Shown in pieces: positions 1,346 through 62,414 of a stretch of 64,000 nucleotides of DNA. Below the pieces are notes generated by a model. The model had not been told where the DNA came from, ran no database searches, and saw only the letters and a program-made list of their open reading frames with translations. The stretch is taken from the NCBI RefSeq assembly GCF_025141935.1, contig NZ_CP081120.1, positions 3,065,001 to 3,129,000 on the forward strand. The letters are read 5' to 3'. The stretch comes from Sulfitobacter sp. S190. Its GTDB lineage: Bacteria > Pseudomonadota > Alphaproteobacteria > Rhodobacterales > Rhodobacteraceae. Within the stretch, counting starts at the first letter, position 1. Each line of letters opens with the position of its first letter. The position numbers were made by a program, and so were the translations under genes.

Positions 1346-4189
1346 TTATTCGGCGGCTTCCGCGTAGTCGGTCATGGGAGGACAGGTGCAGGTGAGGTTG
1401 CGGTCCCCCCATGCGTTGTCGACCCGGTTGACGGGCGGCCAGTATTTATCGACCCGGAACGCACCGGGCGGGAAGCATCCGGTTTCGCGGTCGTAGGGGC
1501 GGTCCCACTCCTTGACCAGATCCTCCATCGTGTGCGGCGCGTTCTTGAGAGGATTGTTGTCGGCGTCGATCTTGCCCTCTTCGATCTGCGCAATCTCGGC
1601 CCGAATGGCGAGCATGGCGTCACAGAAACGGTCAAGCTCGGCCTTGGTCTCCGACTCCGTGGGTTCGATCATCAGCGTCCCCGCAACAGGCCAGCTCATC
1701 GTGGGGGCGTGGAAGCCGCAGTCGATCAGCCGCTTGGCAATGTCGTCGACGGTCACATGGGCACTGTCGGCGAAGGGCCGGGTGTCAATGATGCACTCAT
1801 GCGCCACGCGACCGGAAGTCCCGCGGTAAAGAACGTCGAATGCCCCCTCCAGCCGTTTGGCGATGTAGTTCGCGTTAAGTATGGCGACGCGTGTTGCCTG
1901 CGTCAGACCCTCGCCGCCCATCATCAGGCAATAGGCCCATGAAATCGGCAGCAGCGACGGCGATCCGTAGGGTGCGGCAGACACGGCCCCTTCCCCGGTG
2001 TTGGGATCGCCGGGCAGATGCGGGATCAGGTGATCCTTGACGCCGATGGGGCCCATACCGGGACCACCCCCGCCGTGCGGGATGCAGAACGTCTTGTGCA
2101 GGTTGAGGTGGCTGACGTCACCGCCCAGATCGCCGGGACGCGACAGACCCACCATCGCGTTCATGTTGGCCCCGTCGATGTAAACCTGCCCGCCCGCGTC
2201 ATGGATGATCTGGCACACCTCGATCACGGTTTCTTCGAACACGCCGTGGGTGGAGGGATAAGTGATCATGCAGCCTGCGAGGTTGTCGCGGTGCTGGTCC
2301 ACCTTGCTACGGAAATCATCAAGGTCGATATCACCGCGATCGTCGGATTTGACCGGCACGACTTTCCAGCCGACCATTTGCGCAGATGCGGGATTGGTGC
2401 CGTGGGCGTTCATCGGAATGAGGCAGATGTTGCGGTGCCCTTCGCCGTTGGCGCGGTGGTAGCCCGCGATGGTCAGCAGACCCGCATATTCGCCCTGCGC
2501 CCCAGAATTGGGCTGCATGGATATCGCGTCATAGCCGGTCACGTCGCACAGTTTGTCCGACAGATCGGCAATCATCTCGTGGTAGCCCTCGGCCTGATCG
2601 CGCGGCACGAAGGGATGCAGCAGGGAAAACTCGTCCCATGACACCGGCATCATCTCTGCGGCGGAGTTCAGCTTCATCGTGCACGACCCCAAGGGGATCA
2701 TCGCGCGGTCGAGCGCCAGATCACGGTCCGCGAGGCGGCGCATGTAGCGCATCATCTCGGTCTCGGCCCGGTTCATGTGGAATACCGGATGGGTCAGGAA
2801 ATCAGAGGTGCGGATCAGCTTTTCGGGCATGTGGTAATGCGGGGTGTAGTCCTTGTCCGCACGGTCGATGCCGAAGGCGCGCCAGACCGCTTCGATGGTT
2901 GCGGGGCGGGTACGTTCATCGAGCGTGATGCCGACCTGCGTGTCGCCCACGGCACGCAGATTGATGCCTTCGTCGACGGCGGATTTCATCACGGCCTGCT
3001 GCAAGGGCCCCACATCGACGGTGATCGTGTCGAAGAAGGCGGCGGGCCGGACATCGAACCCGCCCATTTTCAGACCTTCGGCCAGTCGGGCGGTTTTGCG
3101 GTGTATCCGCTGAGCGATGGCGCGCAGGCCCTGAGGCCCGTGGAAAACGGCGTAGAAGCCCGCCATGACCGCCAGAAGCGCCTGCGCGGTGCAGACATTC
3201 GATGTCGCCTTTTCGCGCCGGATATGCTGTTCGCGCGTTTGCAGCGACAAACGGTAGGCCCGGTTGCCGTGACTGTCGATGGACACCCCCACGATCCGGC
3301 CTGGCATGTTGCGCGCATAGCTCTGGCGCGTCGCCATGTAGGCCGCGTGCGGACCGCCGTAGCCGACCGGCACGCCGAACCGCTGGGTCGTGCCCACGGC
3401 AATGTCGGCGCCCATGGCACCGGGTTCCTTGAGCAACGTCAAAGACAGCGGATCCGCCGCAATGATGCCGATGGCCTTGGCCGAATGCAGCGCGTCGATC
3501 TGGGGTGTGAAATCGCGCAGATGCCCGTGGGTGCCGGGGAACTGAAAGATCGCGCCGAACACCGTTTCGGCATCCAGATCATTGGGGCTGCCCACAGTGA
3601 TTTCGATGCCGAGCGGTGCCGCGCGGGTTTTCATCACGGCGATGTTCTGCGGGTGGCAGTTTTCGTCGACGAAAAAGCCCTTGAGTTTGGATTTGGACAC
3701 CCGTTGCGCCATGGTCATCGCCTCGGCGCAGGCGGTCGCCTCGTCCAGCAGCGAGGCATTGGCGATTTCCAGACCGGTCAGATCGGAGACCATGGTCTGG
3801 AAATTCAAGAGCGCCTCGAGCCGGCCCTGAGAGATTTCGGGCTGGTAGGGGGTGTAGGCGGTATACCACGCGGGGTTTTCGAAAATATTGCGCTGGATCG
3901 CGGGGGGCGTGACCGTCCCGTGATACCCCTGCCCGATGAGCGAGGTCAGCACCTTGTTCTTGGCTGCCGTCACCTTCATGTGGTGCAGCAGTTCGCGTTC
4001 GGATTTCGGCTTGCCAAAATCGAGCGGTTCTTTCTGACGAATGGCCGGTGGCAGCGTATCGTCGATGAGCGCGTCGAGATCTTTCGCCCCCACCGTATCG
4101 AGCATCTGCGCCATCTCATCGGGTGATGGACCGATGTGCCGACGGTTGGCAAAGTCGTAGGGAAGATAGTCGGTGGGGGTAAATGTCAT
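1346..4189 (-). CDS. gcvP: Glycine dehydrogenase (decarboxylating), P-protein
   Basis: GcvP is the PLP-dependent P-protein of the glycine cleavage system. It decarboxylates glycine and passes the aminomethyl group to the lipoyl arm of GcvH. The 947 residues match the single-chain bacterial form with two homologous halves. The PLP lysine motif [17 protein letters not shown] lies in the second half at about residue 695-700, and the N-terminus has the family signature [11 protein letters not shown]. It starts 15 bp after the gcvH stop, as the last gene of a gcvT-gcvH-gcvP operon under the glycine riboswitch. No frameshift or missing motif was seen. Confidence 0.98.
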
Positions 4190-4204
4190 CTGGTGGCCCT
4201 CAGC

Positions 4205-4564
4205 TTAACCAATCATTGCCTTGTAGGCGTCTTCGTCCATGTAATCGTCCATCTGGGACGGATCGGACGGCTTGATCTTGAAAAACCAGCCTTCGCCGGT
4301 GGCGTCTTCGTTGGCCAGCGCGGGGTTGTCGCCCAAGGCTTCATTCACAGCGGTGATTTCACCGTCGAGCGGGGCCATGATGTCAGACGCGGCCTTCACG
4401 GATTCAATGACGACGATTTCGTCATCCTTTTCCACGGTCGTGCCGACGTCGGGCAATTCGACAAAAACGATGTCGCCCAGCTGTTCGGTGGCGTGGGCGG
4501 TGATGCCCACCACGATCACATCGCCTTCGGTGCGCAGCCATTCGTGTTCTTCTGTGTATTTCAT
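4205..4564 (-). CDS. gcvH: Glycine cleavage system H protein (lipoyl carrier)
   Basis: This 119-residue lipoyl-carrier protein shuttles the methylamine intermediate between GcvP, GcvT and lipoamide dehydrogenase. The lipoyl-lysine motif is intact (IESVKAASDI, Lys57). The N-terminus MKYTEEHEWL and the GEGWFFK block are canonical. I chose the ATG at 4564 over an upstream in-frame start because it gives the family N-terminus and has an AGAGAGA ribosome-binding site. It sits between gcvT and gcvP with gaps of 19 and 15 bp. A second, lysine-less paralogue is at 59833-60198. Confidence 0.98.
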   Translation of the reverse strand: MKYTEEHEWLRTEGDVIVVGITAHATEQLGDIVFVELPDVGTTVEKDDEIVVIESVKAASDIMAPLDGEITAVNEALGDNPALANEDATGEGWFFKIKPSDPSQMDDYMDEDAYKAMIG

Positions 4565-4583
4565 GGTCGTGTCTCTCTGTTGG

Positions 4584-5705
4584 TTATCGTTTGAAGTTCG
4601 CGGGCGTGAAGGGCATGGCGACCACGCGCAGCGGCAGGCGTCTGCCGCGCAGATCGCCATAGACCGTTGTGCCGATTTCGGCGTGACCAAGGTCAACGTA
4701 ACCCATCGCAACCGGCCCCCCTACCGTCGGACCAAAGCCGCCGGACGTAATCTGGCCGATGGGATCTGCCGCGGTGTCATCGGCATAGAGCGCAACGCCT
4801 TCGCGCATCGGTGCGCGGCCCTCGGGCAACAGGCCCACGCGTTTGCGCCCCGCGCCCCCCTGCATCTGGGCAAAGATGTATTCGGCACCGGGAAAGCCAC
4901 CTGCCCGCGCGCCATCCGGGCGGCGCACCTTCTGGACGGCCCAGGTCAGCGCGGCTTCGACCGGGGTGGTTTCGGTGTCGATGTCGTGACCGTAGAGGCA
5001 TAGCCCCGCCTCCAGCCGCAGCGAATCCCGTGCGCCAAGGCCGATCGGTTCGACATCGGGATGCGCCAGAAGCGTTCTGGCCAGCGCCACCGCGTCTGTG
5101 GCGGGGACCGAAATCTCGTAGCCGTCCTCACCGGTGTAGCCCGAGCGCGAAACCCAGCAGTCGGACCCGTCAAGCGTCAGGGTGGCCACATCCATGAAAC
5201 GCATCTGCGCGGCGGCGGGATCAAGCTGCGACAGGACGGCCTGCGCGGACGGTCCCTGCAAAGCCAAGAGCGCGCGGTCGGTCACCTCTGTCACCTCGAT
5301 GCCCGGCATGGCGCCGGCCATATGCGCGATGTCATCGGATTTGCACGCGGCATTCACCACGACAAAGACGTGGTCGCCCCGGTTGGCCAGCATCAGGTCG
5401 TCGGTGATGCCGCCCGCGTCATTGGTAAAAAAACCATACCGCTGGCGGTTTTCGCCCAGACCCAGCACATCGACCGGCACAAGGGCCTCGAGCGCCGTGG
5501 CAGCCTGTTCGTAGTCACGGCCCTTCACGATGACCTGCCCCATGTGGCTGACATCGAACAAACCGGCCTTGGTGCGGGTGTGATTGTGTTCTTTCATCAC
5601 GCCAAGGGGATATTGCACCGGCATCGCGTAGCCTGCGAAGGGCACCATTTTCGCGCCGAGTTCCACGTGCAGATCGTGCAGCGGCGTTTCCAGCAAATCA
5701 GACAT
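4584..5705 (-). CDS. gcvT: Glycine cleavage system aminomethyltransferase (T-protein)
   Basis: GcvT transfers the methylene carbon from aminomethyl-lipoyl GcvH to tetrahydrofolate and releases ammonia. The 373 residues are the usual length. The N-terminus (LHDLHVELGAKMVPFAGYAM) and the SRSGYTGEDGYEI block are typical of the folate-binding aminomethyltransferase fold. It is the first gene of the operon, with its ATG at 5705 preceded by an AAAGG site. It lies roughly 90 bases after the end of a tandem glycine riboswitch, so expression probably rises with glycine. Confidence 0.97.
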   Translation of the reverse strand: MSDLLETPLHDLHVELGAKMVPFAGYAMPVQYPLGVMKEHNHTRTKAGLFDVSHMGQVIVKGRDYEQAATALEALVPVDVLGLGENRQRYGFFTNDAGGITDDLMLANRGDHVFVVVNAACKSDDIAHMAGAMPGIEVTEVTDRALLALQGPSAQAVLSQLDPAAAQMRFMDVATLTLDGSDCWVSRSGYTGEDGYEISVPATDAVALARTLLAHPDVEPIGLGARDSLRLEAGLCLYGHDIDTETTPVEAALTWAVQKVRRPDGARAGGFPGAEYIFAQMQGGAGRKRVGLLPEGRAPMREGVALYADDTAADPIGQITSGGFGPTVGGPVAMGYVDLGHAEIGTTVYGDLRGRRLPLRVVAMPFTPANFKR

Positions 5706-5794
5706 CTTGTGCCTTTCGTCTTTTGCCGGGTCGATCAGGAAAATCGGTCGGCACCACAGGATGCAAAGGCGTTTGGCCCTTGCTGCGATGCCTC

Positions 5795-5948
5795 CTCTGT
5801 CTTTGCGCCGTTGGCGCGCCTGAGATTGCTATCCCTTCGGCGGGTGCGGCTGCACCACTCTCCAGAGTTTTGGTTCAATGTCGGTCCTGTGGCCTGAGAG
5901 TTTCCGAGGCAGTTGCTCCTTCGGCACCAGTAAACTGGTTCTCCCGAC
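5795..5948 (-). promoter_or_regulatory. Tandem glycine riboswitch upstream of gcvT
   Basis: Read on the minus strand, two glycine-aptamer copies are visible. Aptamer 1 (about 5948-5879) is closed by GTCGG/CCGAC and carries GCCGAAGGAGCAACTGCC followed by AACTCTCAGG and GGACCGAC. Aptamer 2 (about 5867-5795) is closed by CTCTG/CAGAG and carries CCGCCGAAGGG, then GCAATCTCAGG. A short linker joins them. Tandem glycine riboswitches before gcvT normally switch expression on with glycine. The remainder of the 5706-6021 gap holds no gene and should contain the promoter upstream of 5948. Confidence 0.93.
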
Positions 5949-6021
5949 ATCGTTCTTATGGGCGCTATTTGCGGCGCTTTGTGCGGCGCTGTCAACCGTT
6001 ATGCTGCGCGGTGGGGCGCGA

Positions 6022-55699: not shown

Positions 55700-56368
55700 A
55701 TGACCGAACCAATCTTTTCACTCAAAGATGCAGCGTTGCGGCTGAATGGCAATGCCGGACCGGTCGACATCCTGCACGGCATAACGCTCGACATCAATCA
55801 GGGCGAAAGCGTCGGGCTGATCGGGCCATCCGGATCGGGCAAGTCTTCGTTGTTGATGATTATGGGCGGGCTGGAGCAGGCCAGCGGTGGCAGCGTTCAT
55901 GCGATGGGCGCCGATCTGACAGCGATGGACGAAGATGCGCTCGCGCGATTTCGGCGTGACCGCATGGGTATCGTGTTTCAGAGTTTTCATCTGATCCCGA
56001 CAATGACCGCACTGGAGAACGTGGCCACCCCGCTCGAAATTGCGGGGCATACAGATGCCTTTGACCGCGCGTCCGAGGCCTTGGCCGCTGTCGGGCTGGC
56101 ATCGCGTGCGGGCCACTATCCGGCCCAGCTTTCCGGCGGCGAGCAGCAACGCGTGGCACTCGCTCGCGCCACGGCCCCACGGCCCTCAATCCTTTTGGCA
56201 GACGAGCCGACAGGCAATCTGGACAGTGCCAACGGAACCGCCATCATGGATTTGTTGTTCGACCTGCGGGATCGCCACGGCTCGACCCTTGTTCTGGTAA
56301 CACACGCGGATGACCTTGCCGCCCGGTGTGATCGCGTCATCGCCCTGCGCGACGGCCAGATCGCATGA
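55700..56368 (+). CDS. ABC transporter ATP-binding protein (YbbA/LolD-like)
   Basis: A 222-residue ATPase of the LolD/MacB group. Walker A GPSGSGKSS is at 42-50, the Q-loop is VFQSFHLIP, the signature LSGGEQQR and Walker B LLADEPTGNLD. Start ATG 55700; its stop overlaps the permease start as ATGA, so the two are coupled. Its position beside a TesA-like gene marks it as the YbbA equivalent. The transported substrate is not known. Confidence 0.93.
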   Translation: MTEPIFSLKDAALRLNGNAGPVDILHGITLDINQGESVGLIGPSGSGKSSLLMIMGGLEQASGGSVHAMGADLTAMDEDALARFRRDRMGIVFQSFHLIPTMTALENVATPLEIAGHTDAFDRASEALAAVGLASRAGHYPAQLSGGEQQRVALARATAPRPSILLADEPTGNLDSANGTAIMDLLFDLRDRHGSTLVLVTHADDLAARCDRVIALRDGQIA

Positions 56369-58881
56369 GTGTCAGACTTGCGTCTCGTCTGGCTTGGCGT
56401 GAACTACGCGGCGGTTTGCGTGGCTTTCGGCTCTTTCTGGCGTGCCTCGCTCTCGGCGTCGCGGCGATCGCCGCCGTCGGGTCGGTAAGATCGGGAATCG
56501 AGGCGGGGCTTGCCCGCGAGGGCGCGGCGTTGCTGGGTGGGGATGCGGAAATTGAATTTACCTACCGTTTCGCGACCGAACCTGAACGCGCATGGATGCG
56601 TGACAAAGCCGAGGCCGTTTCAGAGGTCGCCGAATTCCGGTCGATGGCAACGGTGGGCGAAGATCGCGCCCTGACGCAGGTCAAGGCAATCGATGCCCGG
56701 TATCCGCTGGTTGGCGACGTCGTCCTTCAACCCGACATTCCGTTGAGCGACGCGTTGTCTGTGGTCGACGGCATACCGGGCGCCGCGATGGAAACCGCAC
56801 TGATCGACCGTTTGGGCCTGACGGTTGGCGAACCCTTTTCGCTGGGAACACAGACGTATCAACTGCGCGCGGTGCTTGTGCGCGAACCCGATAGTGCCGC
56901 CGCGGGCTTTGCGCTCGGTCCGCGTACACTCGTCACCCGCGATAGTCTTGAAGTCTCCGGTCTGCTTGCCCCAGGCACCCTTTTCAACAGCAAATACCGT
57001 CTGGCCCTGCCGGATACTGCATCTTTGGACGACATGGAAGCGGAGCTCAAATCCACCTTCGAAAACAGTGGTCTGCGCTGGCGCGACGCCCGCAACGGCG
57101 CGCCGGGCGTCGCCCAATTCGTTAACAGGCTCAGCGCATTCCTGATCCTTGTCGGACTGTCGGGCCTTGCCGTTGGCGGGGTCGGCGTATCAGCCGCCGT
57201 GCGCAGCTATCTGGGCCGCAAAGTGGCCGTCATTGCGACCTTGCGCGCCCTTGGCGCCGACCGCGCGACAATTTTCCAGACATACTTTTTCCAGATCGGC
57301 GGCCTGTCTTTGCTGGGGGTTACAATCGGTGTCATTCTCGGCGCGACAGCACCGCTTTTGCTGGCCCCCCTGCTTGAATCGAGACTACCGGTTCCCGCCG
57401 CCTTCGCAGTGTTCCCCGCGCCTCTTATCGAAGCAGCTCTCTACGGGATACTGACGGCTTTCGTTTTCACGCTCTGGCCCTTGGCACGCACCGAACAGAT
57501 ACGCGCGGCAACATTGTTTCGTGACGCATGGGCCGGTGCGGCGCGGTGGCCGTCGTGGCCTTTCATTGCGGCGACTTTGGCATGTGTCGCGTTGCTCGTG
57601 ACCTTGGCCGGTTGGTTCAACGGGAGCTGGTGGATCACCCTGTGGACATTGGGCGGGATAGCGGGCGCACTCTTTCTGCTGATGCTGACTGCGGCCGCGA
57701 TAAGGTTTGGGGCACGCCGCCTTGTCCGTTTTGCGCGGGGCCGCCCGCGCCTGCGGTGGGCAATGGCCGCAATTGGCGGCAACGGGGAAGGTGCCACGGC
57801 TGTGGTCCTTTCGCTTGGTCTTGGGCTTTCTGTTTTGGCAGCGGTGGGCCAGATCGATGGTAATTTGAGACAGGCGATTTCCGGCAATCTGCCAGAGGTC
57901 GCGCCCAGCTATTTCTTTGTCGACATCCAGCAGGCGCAAATGGCCGGCTATACACAGCGGCTCGAAACAGACCCCGCAGTCAGCCGCATCGACAGCGCGC
58001 CAATGTTGCGCGGCATCATCACGCAGATCAACGGAAAGCCTGCCGCCGGGACCGCGGGCGATCACTGGGTGCTGGAAGGAGACCGCGGCGTGACCTATGC
58101 CGCAGCGCCCGGCGACAAGGCCAACATCACCCGCGGAGACTGGTGGCCCGAGGACTACGACGGCCCCCCGCTGATAAGTTTTGCCGCAGAAGAAGCCGAA
58201 GAAATGGGACTGGAACTGGGCGACACGCTCACGGTTAATATTCTGGGGCGCGACATCACCGGCACCATCGCAAATTTTCAGGAGGTCGATTTCTCTACAG
58301 CAGGCATCGGGTTTATCCTCACGATGAACCCAGCAGCACTCGCAGGGGCGCCGCACACTTTCATTTCCACCGTCTACGCCGAACCCGAGGCGGAAGCGGC
58401 GATACTGCGCGATCTTGCGTCGGCCTATCCGAATATTACCGCGATCCGCGTACGCGATGCGATTGACCGTGTGGCGGACGTGCTGGCGGGGCTCGCCGCG
58501 GCAACGTCCTACGGCGCGGCAGCGACATTGCTCACGGGCTTTCTGGTCTTGATCGGTGCAGCGGCGGCTGGTGCCGATGCCCGGACCTTCGAAGCTGCCG
58601 TTTTGAAAACACTAGGCGCATCACGGCGCACGATTGCGGCAAGTTTCATCCTGCGCGCGGCCCTCCTTGGTCTGGCCGCAGGATCGGTGGCCCTGCTGGC
58701 CGGAATACTGGGCGGTTGGGCGGTCAGCCGGTTCGTGATGGAAACGGACTATACCGTCATCTGGTCGTCGGCGGTTCTGATTATTTCCGGAGGTATCATT
58801 GCGACCGTCTTGGCCGGGCTCGGCTTTGCGCGCAGGGCGCTTGTGGCACGTCCCGCGCAGGTTTTGCGAGCGAGCGAGTAA
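56365..58881 (+). CDS. FtsX-like ABC permease (YbbP-like)
   Basis: An 838-residue membrane protein with two FtsX domains. It has an N-terminal helix (FRLFLACLALGVAAIAAVGS), a large periplasmic region (about 50-240), a helix cluster, a second soluble domain (about 500-700) and a final FtsX helix set (ALLGLAAGSVALLAGILGGW). Length and ten-helix layout fit YbbP. It forms a complex with the preceding ATPase and probably acts on periplasmic or outer-membrane lipid or protein, by analogy only. Confidence 0.92.
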   Translation: MSVRLASRLAWRELRGGLRGFRLFLACLALGVAAIAAVGSVRSGIEAGLAREGAALLGGDAEIEFTYRFATEPERAWMRDKAEAVSEVAEFRSMATVGEDRALTQVKAIDARYPLVGDVVLQPDIPLSDALSVVDGIPGAAMETALIDRLGLTVGEPFSLGTQTYQLRAVLVREPDSAAAGFALGPRTLVTRDSLEVSGLLAPGTLFNSKYRLALPDTASLDDMEAELKSTFENSGLRWRDARNGAPGVAQFVNRLSAFLILVGLSGLAVGGVGVSAAVRSYLGRKVAVIATLRALGADRATIFQTYFFQIGGLSLLGVTIGVILGATAPLLLAPLLESRLPVPAAFAVFPAPLIEAALYGILTAFVFTLWPLARTEQIRAATLFRDAWAGAARWPSWPFIAATLACVALLVTLAGWFNGSWWITLWTLGGIAGALFLLMLTAAAIRFGARRLVRFARGRPRLRWAMAAIGGNGEGATAVVLSLGLGLSVLAAVGQIDGNLRQAISGNLPEVAPSYFFVDIQQAQMAGYTQRLETDPAVSRIDSAPMLRGIITQINGKPAAGTAGDHWVLEGDRGVTYAAAPGDKANITRGDWWPEDYDGPPLISFAAEEAEEMGLELGDTLTVNILGRDITGTIANFQEVDFSTAGIGFILTMNPAALAGAPHTFISTVYAEPEAEAAILRDLASAYPNITAIRVRDAIDRVADVLAGLAAATSYGAAATLLTGFLVLIGAAAAGADARTFEAAVLKTLGASRRTIAASFILRAALLGLAAGSVALLAGILGGWAVSRFVMETDYTVIWSSAVLIISGGIIATVLAGLGFARRALVARPAQVLRASE

Positions 58882-58939: not shown

Positions 58940-59836
58940 ATGACCAACAGCCTGCCCGCCCCACTCGCACCTGCCCTTAGTCCAGCGCAGCGGCGCCAGA
59001 TCATCAATGTGGTCCGCCGTGCCGCGCGCGCTGAAATCCTGCCGCGCTTTCGCAAACTCGCGGCTGGCGACATCCGTACAAAGGCGGATGACGCGGATCT
59101 CGTGACAGATGCGGACATAGCGGCAGAGGCAATGATCGCGCGCGCTTTGCAGATTGCGTTCCCGCACGCGCTGGTCATCGGGGAAGAGGCCGCAACAGAC
59201 AAACCTGAAATTCTGGATCAGATCGGCCAGGCCCAGCTTGCCTTCCATATCGATCCTGTCGACGGCACCTGGAACTTTGCCAAGGGCTTGCACACTTTTG
59301 GCGTGATCATCGCAGCCACGCGATATGGCCAACCGGTTTTCGGTCTGATCTACGATCCTGTCTCTGATGATTGGGCAATTGCATCCGAGGAAACGGAGGC
59401 CCAGTTACAACGCCCGATCGGCCCCGCCGAAACGCTTAAGGTATCGATGGGCAAACCGCTCGAAGACTTGACGGGGTTGCTGCCACTTTGGTTGTTCCCC
59501 AAGGACAAGCAGGCACAGATCGCTGCGACACTGCCGGGATTTGCCAGCGTCACGTCGCTGCGGTGTTCGGCGCATGAATACCGCATGGTCGCGCAGGGGC
59601 ATGTCGATTTCACCCTGTCCGCCAGCCTGAATTCCTGGGATCACGCCGCAGGTGCGCTGATCTGCGCACAGGCCGGCGCCCATGTCGAAATGCTCGACGG
59701 GGGTGACTACAGCGCCGCGCGCCAGCACGGGTATCTGCTTGTCGCACCGGACAAAATCACCTGGAACAAATTGCGCAAGACTTTCGCGTTCCTGCTTGCC
59801 GAAACCGACGGCGGCGCAGATATGGCGTCGTCCTAG
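58940..59836 (+). CDS. Inositol monophosphatase family protein
   Basis: A 298-residue Mg-dependent phosphatase of the IMPase/FIG fold. Motifs: GEE (81-83), IDPVDGTWNF (104-113, metal-binding Asp105 and Asp108) and WDHAAGALI toward the end. Members remove phosphate from inositol phosphate, histidinol phosphate or PAP; the substrate is unresolved. Start ATG 58940 with CAAGGAG at good spacing. It is 58 bases after the permease and overlaps the convergent GcvH-like gene by four bases. Confidence 0.9.
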   Translation: MTNSLPAPLAPALSPAQRRQIINVVRRAARAEILPRFRKLAAGDIRTKADDADLVTDADIAAEAMIARALQIAFPHALVIGEEAATDKPEILDQIGQAQLAFHIDPVDGTWNFAKGLHTFGVIIAATRYGQPVFGLIYDPVSDDWAIASEETEAQLQRPIGPAETLKVSMGKPLEDLTGLLPLWLFPKDKQAQIAATLPGFASVTSLRCSAHEYRMVAQGHVDFTLSASLNSWDHAAGALICAQAGAHVEMLDGGDYSAARQHGYLLVAPDKITWNKLRKTFAFLLAETDGGADMASS

Positions 59837-60198
59837 CGGGCGAACTTCTGGTAGGCACCTTCGTCCATCAGATCGTCGAGCGCGGAGATGTCCTCAAGCG
59901 CCATGCGGAACAGCCATCCTTCGCCCTGCGGATCGTCACTCAATACGTCGAGATCGTCCAGCAATCGGGTGTTCACCTCGACGACTTCGCCATCCAGAGG
60001 GGCAAGAATATCGACCGTATCGTCGCTGCCTTCGATCACCACAACCGGATCGTCGGCGGACAGGGTGTCACCTTCTTCGGGCAACTCGATGAACGTCGCT
60101 TCGCCCAATTCGGCCATCGCATGCGATGACAGGCCAACCGTGACTTCGTCGCCGTCCTCTTCCTGACGCAACCAGATGTGTTCTTCGGTGAATTTCAT
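59833..60198 (-). CDS. GcvH-like protein lacking the lipoyl lysine
   Basis: A 121-residue protein clearly homologous along its length to GcvH (MKFTEEHIWLRQE start, EATFIELPEEGD, ILAPLDGEV, GEGWLF). The lipoylation motif is gone: aligned with IESVKAASDI of the true GcvH at 4205-4564, this one reads IEGSDDTVDI. The modified Lys57 corresponds to Asp59 here, and no lysine lies nearby. It cannot be an ordinary lipoyl carrier. The ATG 60198 gives the family start. It stands alone, away from gcvTP, and is strongly acidic. Family is sure, function is not. Confidence 0.93.
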   Translation of the reverse strand: MKFTEEHIWLRQEEDGDEVTVGLSSHAMAELGEATFIELPEEGDTLSADDPVVVIEGSDDTVDILAPLDGEVVEVNTRLLDDLDVLSDDPQGEGWLFRMALEDISALDDLMDEGAYQKFAR

Positions 60199-60326
60199 GT
60201 GCACCCCCGTCCGTTTCTTTCGTACTGACAAACTGCAGCGCCGTTGACAACAGGTTGCCGCGGACTTGTCCCCGCGTGAGCAGAATGATTATCTCCGGCC
60301 AATGGTTCCAAGGGCAAAGGACGGCC

Positions 60327-60881
60327 ATGCATCCCTATTTTTTCGGCTATGGCAGCTTGGTCAACCGCGCGACGCAGCAGTATCCCGATGCGCAGACCGC
60401 GCAGCTTCATGGTTGGCGGCGCGAATGGGTCCGCACGGATTTGCGCGATGTCGTCTTTCTCAGCGTCAAACCAGCGCCGGGCTGCGTGATTGACGGATTG
60501 ATCGCGGCGGTCCCGGGCGCGGATTGGCACGCGCTCGATGCGCGCGAAACGGGATACGGTCGTGTCCAGAGCGGCAGCGCCGTCGCCCATGCCATCACAC
60601 CCGCACCTCAGATCGCGCATTATTGCATCCCCGCGCAGAGCCAAAGACGCGGTGGTGACCACAAGATTTTGCTGAGCTATCTGGATGTGGTCGTACAGGG
60701 GTTCTTGCGCGAATTCGGGTCTCAGGGTGTCGCTCAATTCTTTGCAACGACTGACGGTTGGGACACGCCGGTGCTGAATGATCGTGCCAATCCGATCTAC
60801 CCGCGCGCACAGATGCTCAGCGCTGATGAAATGCGTTTGGTGGACACGCATCTGGCCGCCATTGGCAAGCAGCCGGACTGA
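60327..60881 (+). CDS. Gamma-glutamylcyclotransferase-like protein
   Basis: A 184-residue GGCT-fold protein. The substrate-binding YGSLVN motif (8-13) and Glu74 in ARETGYGRV, the position of the catalytic acid in relatives, are both present. Such proteins cyclise gamma-glutamyl amines or act in glutathione turnover (ChaC-like). Start ATG 60327, with an AAGGGCAAAGG stretch upstream. It is monocistronic and ends at a terminator shared with gltX. Confidence 0.85.
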   Translation: MHPYFFGYGSLVNRATQQYPDAQTAQLHGWRREWVRTDLRDVVFLSVKPAPGCVIDGLIAAVPGADWHALDARETGYGRVQSGSAVAHAITPAPQIAHYCIPAQSQRRGGDHKILLSYLDVVVQGFLREFGSQGVAQFFATTDGWDTPVLNDRANPIYPRAQMLSADEMRLVDTHLAAIGKQPD

Positions 60882-60925: not shown

Positions 60926-62266
60926 TCAGGCTGACCCGCGGGCCTTTACGACCTGCAACAGCGGCATGACCTGGCTCATATCGGGGCCGTGCTGCTGTCC
61001 TGTCAGCGCCTTGCGCAACGGCATGAAAAGCGCTTTGCCTTTGCGGCCTGTCTTTTCTTTCACCGCGGCTGTCCAGTTGCCCCACGTGTTGTCATCGAAC
61101 GGCGCTTGCGGGAGCAACTCCAGCGCTTCGGCAACAAAATCGCGGTCTTCGTCGTCGATGACGGGCTCAGCGCCTTCGCTGAACATCGCCCACCATCCGG
61201 CCAGGTCATGCAGCGTCGTGACGTTTTCGCGTGTCACGTCCCAGAACCGCGTGGCCTGTGCATCAGGAACGCCCGCCGCCCGAACGGCATCCGCGACCTC
61301 GGCCAGAGACAGCGTTTGCAGATAGCGCGCGGTCAGCGGTTTGAGATCTTCCGCGTCAAACTTGGTCGGTGCGGAACCGAACCGTGATATATCGAAACCG
61401 TCGATCAGTGTTTGCATATCGGTGCGCAGTTCGACCGGATCGCTGGATCCCAGACGTGACATCAGGCTCAACAGCGCCTGCGGTGCTATGCCCTGCGCAC
61501 GCAAGTCTTTCAGCGCAAGGGTACCAAGACGTTTGGACAGCGCCTCACCCTGCGGACCGGTCAGCAACGAGTGATGCGCGAACTGTGGCACTTCACCGCC
61601 AAGCGCCTGCATGATCTGGATTTGCGTGCCGGTGTTGGTCACGTGATCCGAACCCCGAACCACATGTGTAACGCCCATTTCGGTGTCGTCGACAACGGAT
61701 GCCAGCGTATACAGGATTTGCCCGTCGCCGCGGATCAGAACCGGGTCGGAAACGGATGCGCCGTCGATCGACACGTCCCCAAGGATGCCATCATTCCAAA
61801 CGATGCGTTCCTGAAGCAGTTTGAACCGCCAGACACCATCGCCGCGTTCGGCGCGCAACGCCTCCTTTTCAGCCTCATCCAGTGACAATGCCGCGCGGTC
61901 GTATACGGGCGGCTTGCCCATATTCAGCTGCTTCTTGCGCTTGAGGTCGAGCTCCGTCGGTGTCTCGAACGCTTCATAGAAACGGTCCATATCGCGCAGT
62001 TGCTGCGCGGCCGCTTCGTATTTTTCCAGCCTCGACGACTGGCGTTCCACACGGTCCCAATGCAGCCCGAGCCAATCGAGATCGCGTTTGATCCCGTCGA
62101 CGTATTCCTCTTTCGATCTGTTCGGATCGGTATCATCGATGCGCAGGATGAACTCGCCTCCCGCCTTGCGGGCGATAAGGTAATTCATGAGCGCCGTGCG
62201 CAGATTGCCTACGTGAATCCAGCCGGTGGGCGAGGGCGCGAAACGTGTAATGGTCTTTGCGGACAT
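60926..62266 (-). CDS. gltX: Glutamate--tRNA ligase
   Basis: A 446-residue class I glutamyl-tRNA synthetase. The HIGH-like HVGN is at 18-21 in the start RFAPSPTGWIHVGN, and KMSKS appears as ALSKRLG near 240. The C-terminal anticodon domain is complete. Alphaproteobacteria usually carry two GltX paralogues, one of which can charge tRNA-Gln as substrate for GatCAB; which type this is cannot be decided here. The ATG at 62266 with AGGAGGC upstream is clear, and longer in-frame starts lack a site. Confidence 0.96.
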   Translation of the reverse strand: MSAKTITRFAPSPTGWIHVGNLRTALMNYLIARKAGGEFILRIDDTDPNRSKEEYVDGIKRDLDWLGLHWDRVERQSSRLEKYEAAAQQLRDMDRFYEAFETPTELDLKRKKQLNMGKPPVYDRAALSLDEAEKEALRAERGDGVWRFKLLQERIVWNDGILGDVSIDGASVSDPVLIRGDGQILYTLASVVDDTEMGVTHVVRGSDHVTNTGTQIQIMQALGGEVPQFAHHSLLTGPQGEALSKRLGTLALKDLRAQGIAPQALLSLMSRLGSSDPVELRTDMQTLIDGFDISRFGSAPTKFDAEDLKPLTARYLQTLSLAEVADAVRAAGVPDAQATRFWDVTRENVTTLHDLAGWWAMFSEGAEPVIDDEDRDFVAEALELLPQAPFDDNTWGNWTAAVKEKTGRKGKALFMPLRKALTGQQHGPDMSQVMPLLQVVKARGSA

Positions 62267-62414
62267 ATGTGCCTCCTGTTGGTGGCTGACTGTCATAGCA
62301 ATCCCCGTTTGTCCAGTTATCCGCCCAGCCACGCATCCGTGAACGGCCAATCACGGGACATACGGCGCAGTCGCTCTAGGTTTGAAAGCGTCCTATATCA
62401 AACGGAGGTAAGAA

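Follow-up and report, generated by a model that had tools for sequence, protein, structure and literature searches.

H-proteins (GcvH) are textbook lipoate carriers, whose partners are GcvP, GcvT, Lpd, LipB/LplA, and LipA. A chlamydial family of GcvH-like proteins (TIGR03077, not_gcvH) is presumably a GcvH homologue that was retained without the glycine cleavage system (GCS). In the H-protein, the aminomethyl group of the lipoyl arm is reported to be held by Glu-12 and Glu-14, and Ser-67 to be the largest contributor to the barrier against arm release (PMC7733448). GcvH-L is reported to be lipoylated on Lys56 and to be encoded with its own ligase and a sirtuin (PMC4518038), and the 95 aligned LbpA proteins of the sHdr sulfur-oxidation system share the lysine as well as two conserved cysteines, the latter with the exception of some archaeal members (PMC6067878). 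Literature searches on lysine-less GcvH, on left-behind gcvH genes, and on gcvH in Sulfitobacter turned up no account of an H-protein without the lysine, within a mainly open-access literature that included the accessible parts of PMC10332631, PMC7733448, PMC6067878, and PMC4518038.

The window, i.e., the whole stretch of 64,000 nucleotides that was analysed, contains a GcvH-family gene with neither gcvT nor gcvP at its locus (hereafter the orphan), in which the codon for the lipoyl lysine is replaced:

59833..60198, minus strand: the orphan, a GcvH-family gene without the lipoyl lysine; 121 aa, with the stop codon inside the coordinates; PF01597 match of 105.7 bits
60022..60024, minus strand: codon GAC for Asp59, where the lipoyl lysine would stand; none of 49 orthologue-type sequences has Lys here
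60175..60177, minus strand: Ile8 codon ATC, where native GcvH has Glu; equivalent to Glu-14 of Escherichia coli

The preliminary description had called this gene a GcvH paralogue with Asp at the lipoyl-lysine position, without giving its strand, and it is indeed a real, intact open reading frame (ATG...TAG) on the minus strand. Asp59 aligns without gaps around the site to Lys57 of an operon copy in the same window (IEGSDDTVDI and IESVKAASDI), and no nearby lysine could serve as a substitute, as had been claimed, the only lysines of the protein being K2 and K118. Searching the whole source genome (3.97 Mb, six contigs) with PF01597 returned exactly two matches, both inside the window, in agreement with the two GcvH-family genes described there. 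The orphan clearly belongs to the family by its PF01597 score (cut-off 22.2 bits; the operon copy reaches 144.9 bits), falls below the cut-off of the equivalog model TIGR00527 (109.3 against 115.85 bits), and barely passes that of the broader NF002270 (117.8 against 117). The best AlphaFold model has a pLDDT of 93.9 (two of the five models were poor, below 45) and is a confident predicted H-protein fold; the closest PDB structures to it are H-proteins, with a TM of about 0.90 (0.90 to 1onl). The fold had been described as retained, including GEGWLF and the N-terminus, and both of these are kept, but the near-invariant glutamate of the HEW motif is Ile8 in the orphan. The protein has no cysteine, is strongly acidic by its sequence, and is presumably non-lipoylated.

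By the names that its closest orthologues bear, the source genome is a Sulfitobacter. Thirteen of 62 Sulfitobacter genomes, the source genome counted, carry the orphan (213.9 to 233.6 bits; next best match 171.6), and a protein database search returned 42 orphan-type proteins, the window's own included. A first set of 60 genomes held five with close orthologues besides the source genome, none of which has Lys. In a sample of 394 genomes of the family, one from each genus, only the source genome reached the orphan score range; the best other match had 169 bits, and the two best non-orphan matches are Lys-bearing operon copies. Orthologues from the genomes analysed and database proteins, for a minority of which the genome context is known, together gave 49 distinct orthologue-type sequences, with Asp at the lysine position in 40, Glu in eight, and Ser in one. 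Lysine, whose retention in orthologues would have spoken against the preliminary description, is present in 0 of the 49, so that this check did not refute it. The residue that follows is Asp in 49 of 49, as against Ala in native GcvH, and the residues of the Ex2Kx10G motif other than the lysine are kept (E56 in 48 of 49, G70 in 49 of 49). That a lineage lacking the attachment lysine has been conserved suggests that the H fold is reused for something else. Databases call such proteins glycine cleavage system protein H, which is an annotation problem; examples are P0005 and P0006, which match the carrier genomes G001 and G452, both without a GcvP match.

The genes around the orphan point to its origin:

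56365..58881, plus strand: FtsX-like permease gene (ftsX), second flank on the IMP side
58940..59836, plus strand: inositol-monophosphatase-family gene (IMP), convergent, with a 4-nt overlap between its end and the orphan stop; it flanks the ancestral gcvTHP site
60327..60881, plus strand: ChaC-like gamma-glutamylcyclotransferase gene (chaC; weak Pfam match), divergent; flank of the ancestral gcvTHP site
60926..62350, minus strand: glutamyl-tRNA synthetase gene (gltX), outer flank; the limits are those of the open reading frame, and the start may lie further in

The order gltX-chaC-[orphan]-IMP-ftsX is found in all 13 carriers, with about 1.2 kb separating chaC from gltX in one of them (G475). 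Among 78 Lys-bearing loci, drawn from the best 80 of the match list, 74 have gcvT-gcvH-gcvP; 67 of these share at least one flank with the orphan locus (39 on both sides), and in seven none was seen. chaC or gltX lies upstream in 66 of the 74 and IMP or ftsX downstream in 40. The orphan locus is where roseobacters usually have gcvT-gcvH-gcvP, and because the synteny of the carriers matches the gcvTHP flanks, the orphan is the native gcvH minus gcvT and gcvP. No new conserved neighbour that would hint at a partner was seen at the orphan loci; chaC and IMP are old neighbours. The remaining four of the 78 loci are L073, where the contig ends before gcvP, L084, L112, and L118. L112 and L118 are lone gcvH genes elsewhere, not at the gltX/chaC site; L084 (5001-5360, Aliiroseovarius sp. 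KMU-50) is a gcvH with Lys that stands alone next to gltX and chaC, apparently the remainder of a further operon stripped of gcvT and gcvP.

In one genome, G002, the gcvH at this site stands alone and its lysine is intact. The tree of gltX-chaC-ftsX places the 13 carriers in one clade (100/99) with G002 as its sister (97/95), and the chaC-IMP tree places the window outside the other 12 carriers (94/84) and G002 among the native species (95/90). Our account of carrier history rests on the longer gltX-chaC-ftsX alignment; its conflict with the chaC-IMP tree stands. The likely stages are thus represented in living species, from the complete operon through a lone gcvH with lysine (G002) to the lysine-less orphan.

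The source genome has a second gcvTHP operon, which lies at the other end of the window:

1346..4189, minus strand: gcvP of the second operon
4205..4564, minus strand: gcvH of the second operon, 119 aa; Lys57 is AAG at 4394-4396
4584..5705, minus strand: gcvT of the second operon
5872..5956, minus strand: glycine riboswitch aptamer upstream of the second operon (RF00504, 63.6 bits)

The GcvP of this operon clusters with the second-operon GcvPs of seven further Sulfitobacter genomes (local support 99), outside native Sulfitobacter GcvP. Because the GcvP tree sets its lineage apart from the native one, the window gcvTHP (1346-5705) looks to be of foreign origin. This operon lineage (1346-5956, minus strand, in the window) occurs in eight Sulfitobacter genomes among those compared, and its nearest relative in the GcvP tree is Marinibacterium (support 80). 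At L191 (G018), the second-operon gcvT is 44% identical to that of the window and gcvP 85%, and this gcvT seems to have been replaced separately. We also considered whether the orphan had retained a riboswitch and rejected this: no glycine riboswitch matched at the gathering threshold in the orphan region of the window, in L005-L008, or in L040.

The lysine was lost together with other residues that serve the lipoyl arm. In 48 orphans (P0042 was dropped for its N-terminal extension), the Glu14 position is L, I, or V and the Ser67 position V, I, or L (48/48; E. coli numbering), and Glu and Ser occupy these positions in 119 of 119 native rows, a set that left out L205, L207-L209, L118, L037, L112, and the second-operon copies as odd rows, several of them without Glu14. 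Of the full native set of 161 loci, 156 have the Glu14 equivalent and 159 have Lys. Residues that are invariant in native GcvH but lost in the 48 orphans include Glu8, Ser57, Lys59, Ala60, and Ser62 (orphan numbering), of which Glu8 and Ser62 correspond to Glu-14 and Ser-67 in an alignment to the E. coli H-protein; the equivalents of Glu-12 and Asp-68 are kept. New residues are nearly fixed in their turn, namely D60 (48/48), D44 (48/48), L96 (47/48), and R121 (45/48), as well as L8 and P51.

All 13 carrier reading frames are intact, and the median dN/dS of the orphan is 0.12 (0.06-0.24; 25 pairs with dS of 0.8-1.65), about twice that of native gcvH (0.056; 155 pairs). The orphan is under purifying selection and, given also its intact frames and conservation, is not a decayed copy, as had been proposed. 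A conserved block lies upstream:

60226..60250, minus strand: candidate promoter block for the orphan, with TTGwmAA and TTTGGCA at a distance of 18 nt, recognised by consensus only

TTGwmAA and TTTGGCA are each present upstream in 11 of 13 carriers, and nine of 13 have the exact pair at 18 nt. In the window, TTGTCAA is present and TTTGTCA replaces TTTGGCA. Neither element was found upstream of gcvH in G002 or G468.

The orphan persists where glycine cleavage does not. Six of the 13 carriers (G001, G452, G455, G471, G472, and G473; 90-99% complete) have no match to PF02347 (GcvP) at 1e-30, and G001 has none even at 1e-3; the other seven, the source genome included, have a GcvP match. The six GcvP-less carriers occupy four places on the flank tree, so the orphan either survived several operon losses or preceded several gains. 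The best GcvT-family matches of G001 sit in frames of at least 813 aa, and shorter frames reach at most 135 bits, compared to about 250-280 bits for operon GcvT. Outside the carriers, PF02347 has no match at 1e-60 in 32 genomes of the 394-genome one-per-genus sample (20 of them listed, 12 deduced from gaps in the numbering), and 29 of these 32, likewise counted from listed entries and gaps, also have no match to the orphan profile (GcvH) at 1e-30. A re-test with PF01597 was negative for nine of nine among the 29. A general tendency to keep a moonlighting GcvH after the loss of GcvP is therefore unsupported. Three of the 32 do have a GcvH: in G451, gcvP is present but cut by the contig end, and the H-proteins of G065 and G445 both lack the Glu14 equivalent, G065 keeping Lys and G445 having Asp. 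Fisher's exact test of six of six against three of 32 gives 3e-5, with the six being phylogenetically non-independent. In G021 and G463, two Sulfitobacter drafts without GcvP, PF01597 finds no GcvH at all.

Further GcvH-like genes were also seen. G065, which has no GcvP match, and Loktanella share one (L118 5001-5360; L208, L211) that keeps Lys in an ESEK/ESDK context and has Leu for Glu14; its neighbours, named by eye from translations, are thiolase-like, cydAB-like, and phosphoglucomutase-like. The GcvP-less G001 has a second, divergent GcvH-like gene (L037 2391-2861) that keeps Lys, has Gln for Glu14, and adjoins genes for a TpsB-like outer-membrane protein and a TAXI-like transporter (also named by eye).

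Lysine was also lost in parallel. In G468 (89% complete), a gcvH stands alone at the native site, with Met replacing Lys and Leu replacing Glu14; two database proteins nearly identical to it share this Met and Leu. A clade of G468 with the orphans is rejected by the flanks (p-AU 2.8e-64 for gltX-chaC-ftsX, 0.007 for chaC-IMP). One origin of all Sulfitobacter-type Lys-less sequences is thus rejected for G468 by the flanking genes but not by the short GcvH tree (p-AU 0.24), and given the latter value the gene may have been transferred between species. G445 and P0122, which have Asp at the lysine position, are sister to a Lys-bearing protein in the GcvH tree. The fewest lysine changes are five on the first GcvH tree (at least four forced by starred branches) and six on a second tree, built from the first set minus 22 distant rows (at least three forced). 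The orphans have a long stem branch in these trees, and the GcvH tree would not suffice by itself to count conversions among Sulfitobacter-type sequences.

Among 359 listed proteins (the best 120 of each of three database searches), 56 lack the lysine and have instead D (39), E (13), or T, G, M, or L (one each), although P0234 aligns uncertainly. This replacement by an acid in 52 of the 56 lysine-less sequences is a specific clue. Glu14 is missing in 56 of 56 lysine-less proteins and present in 300 of 303 Lys-bearing ones; the exceptions, P0111, P0139, and P0325, suggest that Glu14 can be lost before the lysine. Other Lys-less H-proteins with Asp or Glu that are related to Sulfitobacter GcvH, all from the third search, are P0276, P0304, P0308, P0309, P0324, P0329, and P0349.

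Our best reading is that a lipoyl carrier was turned, more than once, into an H-fold protein that is not lipoylated and serves something other than glycine cleavage. We put the probability that the orphan has a GCS-independent, non-lipoylated binding role at roughly 0.6, a figure that does not extend to LipA or LipB as its partner. The ancestral gcvT-gcvH-gcvP operon lost gcvT and gcvP, leaving the native gcvH, as the synteny shows. Freed from glycine cleavage, gcvH lost the lipoyl lysine and the arm-handling residues, as seen in the sequences, and the intact H-fold protein would then have been kept for a GCS-independent role, to which the purifying selection, the new fixed residues, and the persistence without GcvP all point. 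The lipoyl hairpin, tipped with Asp/Glu-Asp, may dock on a partner unmodified, which would most likely make the orphan a binding protein. A new job is probable because the orphan is intact across this group of marine Sulfitobacter even where the glycine cleavage machine is gone. A protein-binding role for a scaffold that cannot carry lipoate had been suggested before, and it is a sensible reading of a gene that has lost the lysine, has not decayed, and is conserved. The orphan would also offer a clean system in which to study what GcvH can do beyond glycine cleavage.

In genomes without GcvP, an H-protein would be expected to interact with LipB and LipA, which assemble the octanoyl/lipoyl group, and with Lpd, the E3 subunit of 2-oxoacid dehydrogenases. 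Without GcvP and GcvT, the partners left to the orphan are Lpd, LipB/LplA, and LipA, and all 13 carriers have a LipB/LplA-family gene (as do 17 of the 18 genomes tested in total, G468 being the miss). Because this family is present and the motif is kept except for its lysine, a putative docking regulator of lipoyl assembly is the first hypothesis for the orphan; it is a tentative one, and some wholly new partner is no less likely. Stated on its own, this first guess would make the orphan a mimic of the substrate of LipB/LipA or of a lipoate ligase, which would sequester or tune these enzymes and so control the lipoylation of pyruvate and 2-oxoglutarate dehydrogenases; a decoy of lipoate ligase had already been raised in the preliminary description. 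We consider such a mimic rather unlikely. Its acceptor lysine is gone while E56 and G70 of Ex2Kx10G are retained, the LipB/LplA-family gene accompanies it in every carrier, and Glu53 of GcvH-L is reported to be important for recognition by LplA2 (PMC4518038); however, E56 and G70 could be structural and may be kept for the fold rather than for docking, and such a role would not explain the choice of an acid over other residues. Equally speculative is a repeatedly evolved 'pseudo-H' class, in which gcvH would be recruited when the GCS operon is lost or swapped and become a non-lipoylated acidic docker-regulator of the lipoyl-assembly/2-oxoacid dehydrogenase machinery; if true, its hallmark would be the loss of the arm-holding Glu combined with an acid replacing the lysine.

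It is improbable that the orphan is a slowly decaying remnant under relaxed selection, without function and kept by chance. The doubled dN/dS relative to native gcvH and the long stem branch in the gene tree would fit such a remnant, yet 13 of 13 frames are intact, dN/dS is still 0.06-0.24, new near-invariant residues and a conserved upstream block have appeared, and the gene persists in six GcvP-less carriers, whereas no GcvH is seen in most of the other sampled genomes that lack GcvP.

Even less probable is that the orphan acts as a decoy or regulator within the GCS, taking the place of lipoylated GcvH on GcvP or GcvT. This possibility was raised in the preliminary description and agrees with the presence of gcvP in seven of 13 carriers and with the overall H fold predicted for the orphan. 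It cannot be the general role, however, because the gene is kept in the six carriers without a GcvP match; in addition, G001, the one of these six that was examined for it, has no operon-like GcvT among its shorter frames, and the arm-contacting residues are lost. Neither an error in sequencing or assembly nor a mutation confined to one strain has anything in its favour; both count as refuted, since 49 of 49 distinct sequences are without the lysine.

Read as a GCS-independent, probably binding, H-fold protein, the orphan can be set beside the described systems. It resembles GcvH-L of the SirTM/macrodomain/LplA2 operon of Staphylococcus and Streptococcus in being an H-protein paralogue outside glycine cleavage, but it lacks the lysine, and its neighbours are ftsX, IMP, the ChaC-like gene, and gltX rather than SirTM, macrodomain, and LplA2 genes. 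Similarly, it shares with LbpA, which also occurs in Alphaproteobacteria, a GcvH-like single domain and a role other than glycine cleavage, but has no lysine at the site, no cysteine, and no shdr-cluster neighbours. The chlamydial TIGR03077 family belongs to a different lineage, and the orphan scores 58.3 bits against its cut-off of 144.05. GcvH itself (PF01597, TIGR00527) matches the orphan in fold, in length, in 40-42% identity to the solved Thermus and E. coli H-proteins, and in descent from the same locus, but differs in the lipoyl lysine, the Glu14 and Ser67 equivalents, and the gcvT and gcvP at the locus, all of which the orphan lacks, and in the TIGR00527 score. Judged from its sequence, the orphan should not be named a functional GcvH, since the defining lipoyl lysine is missing, yet it is an H-protein by descent and fold.
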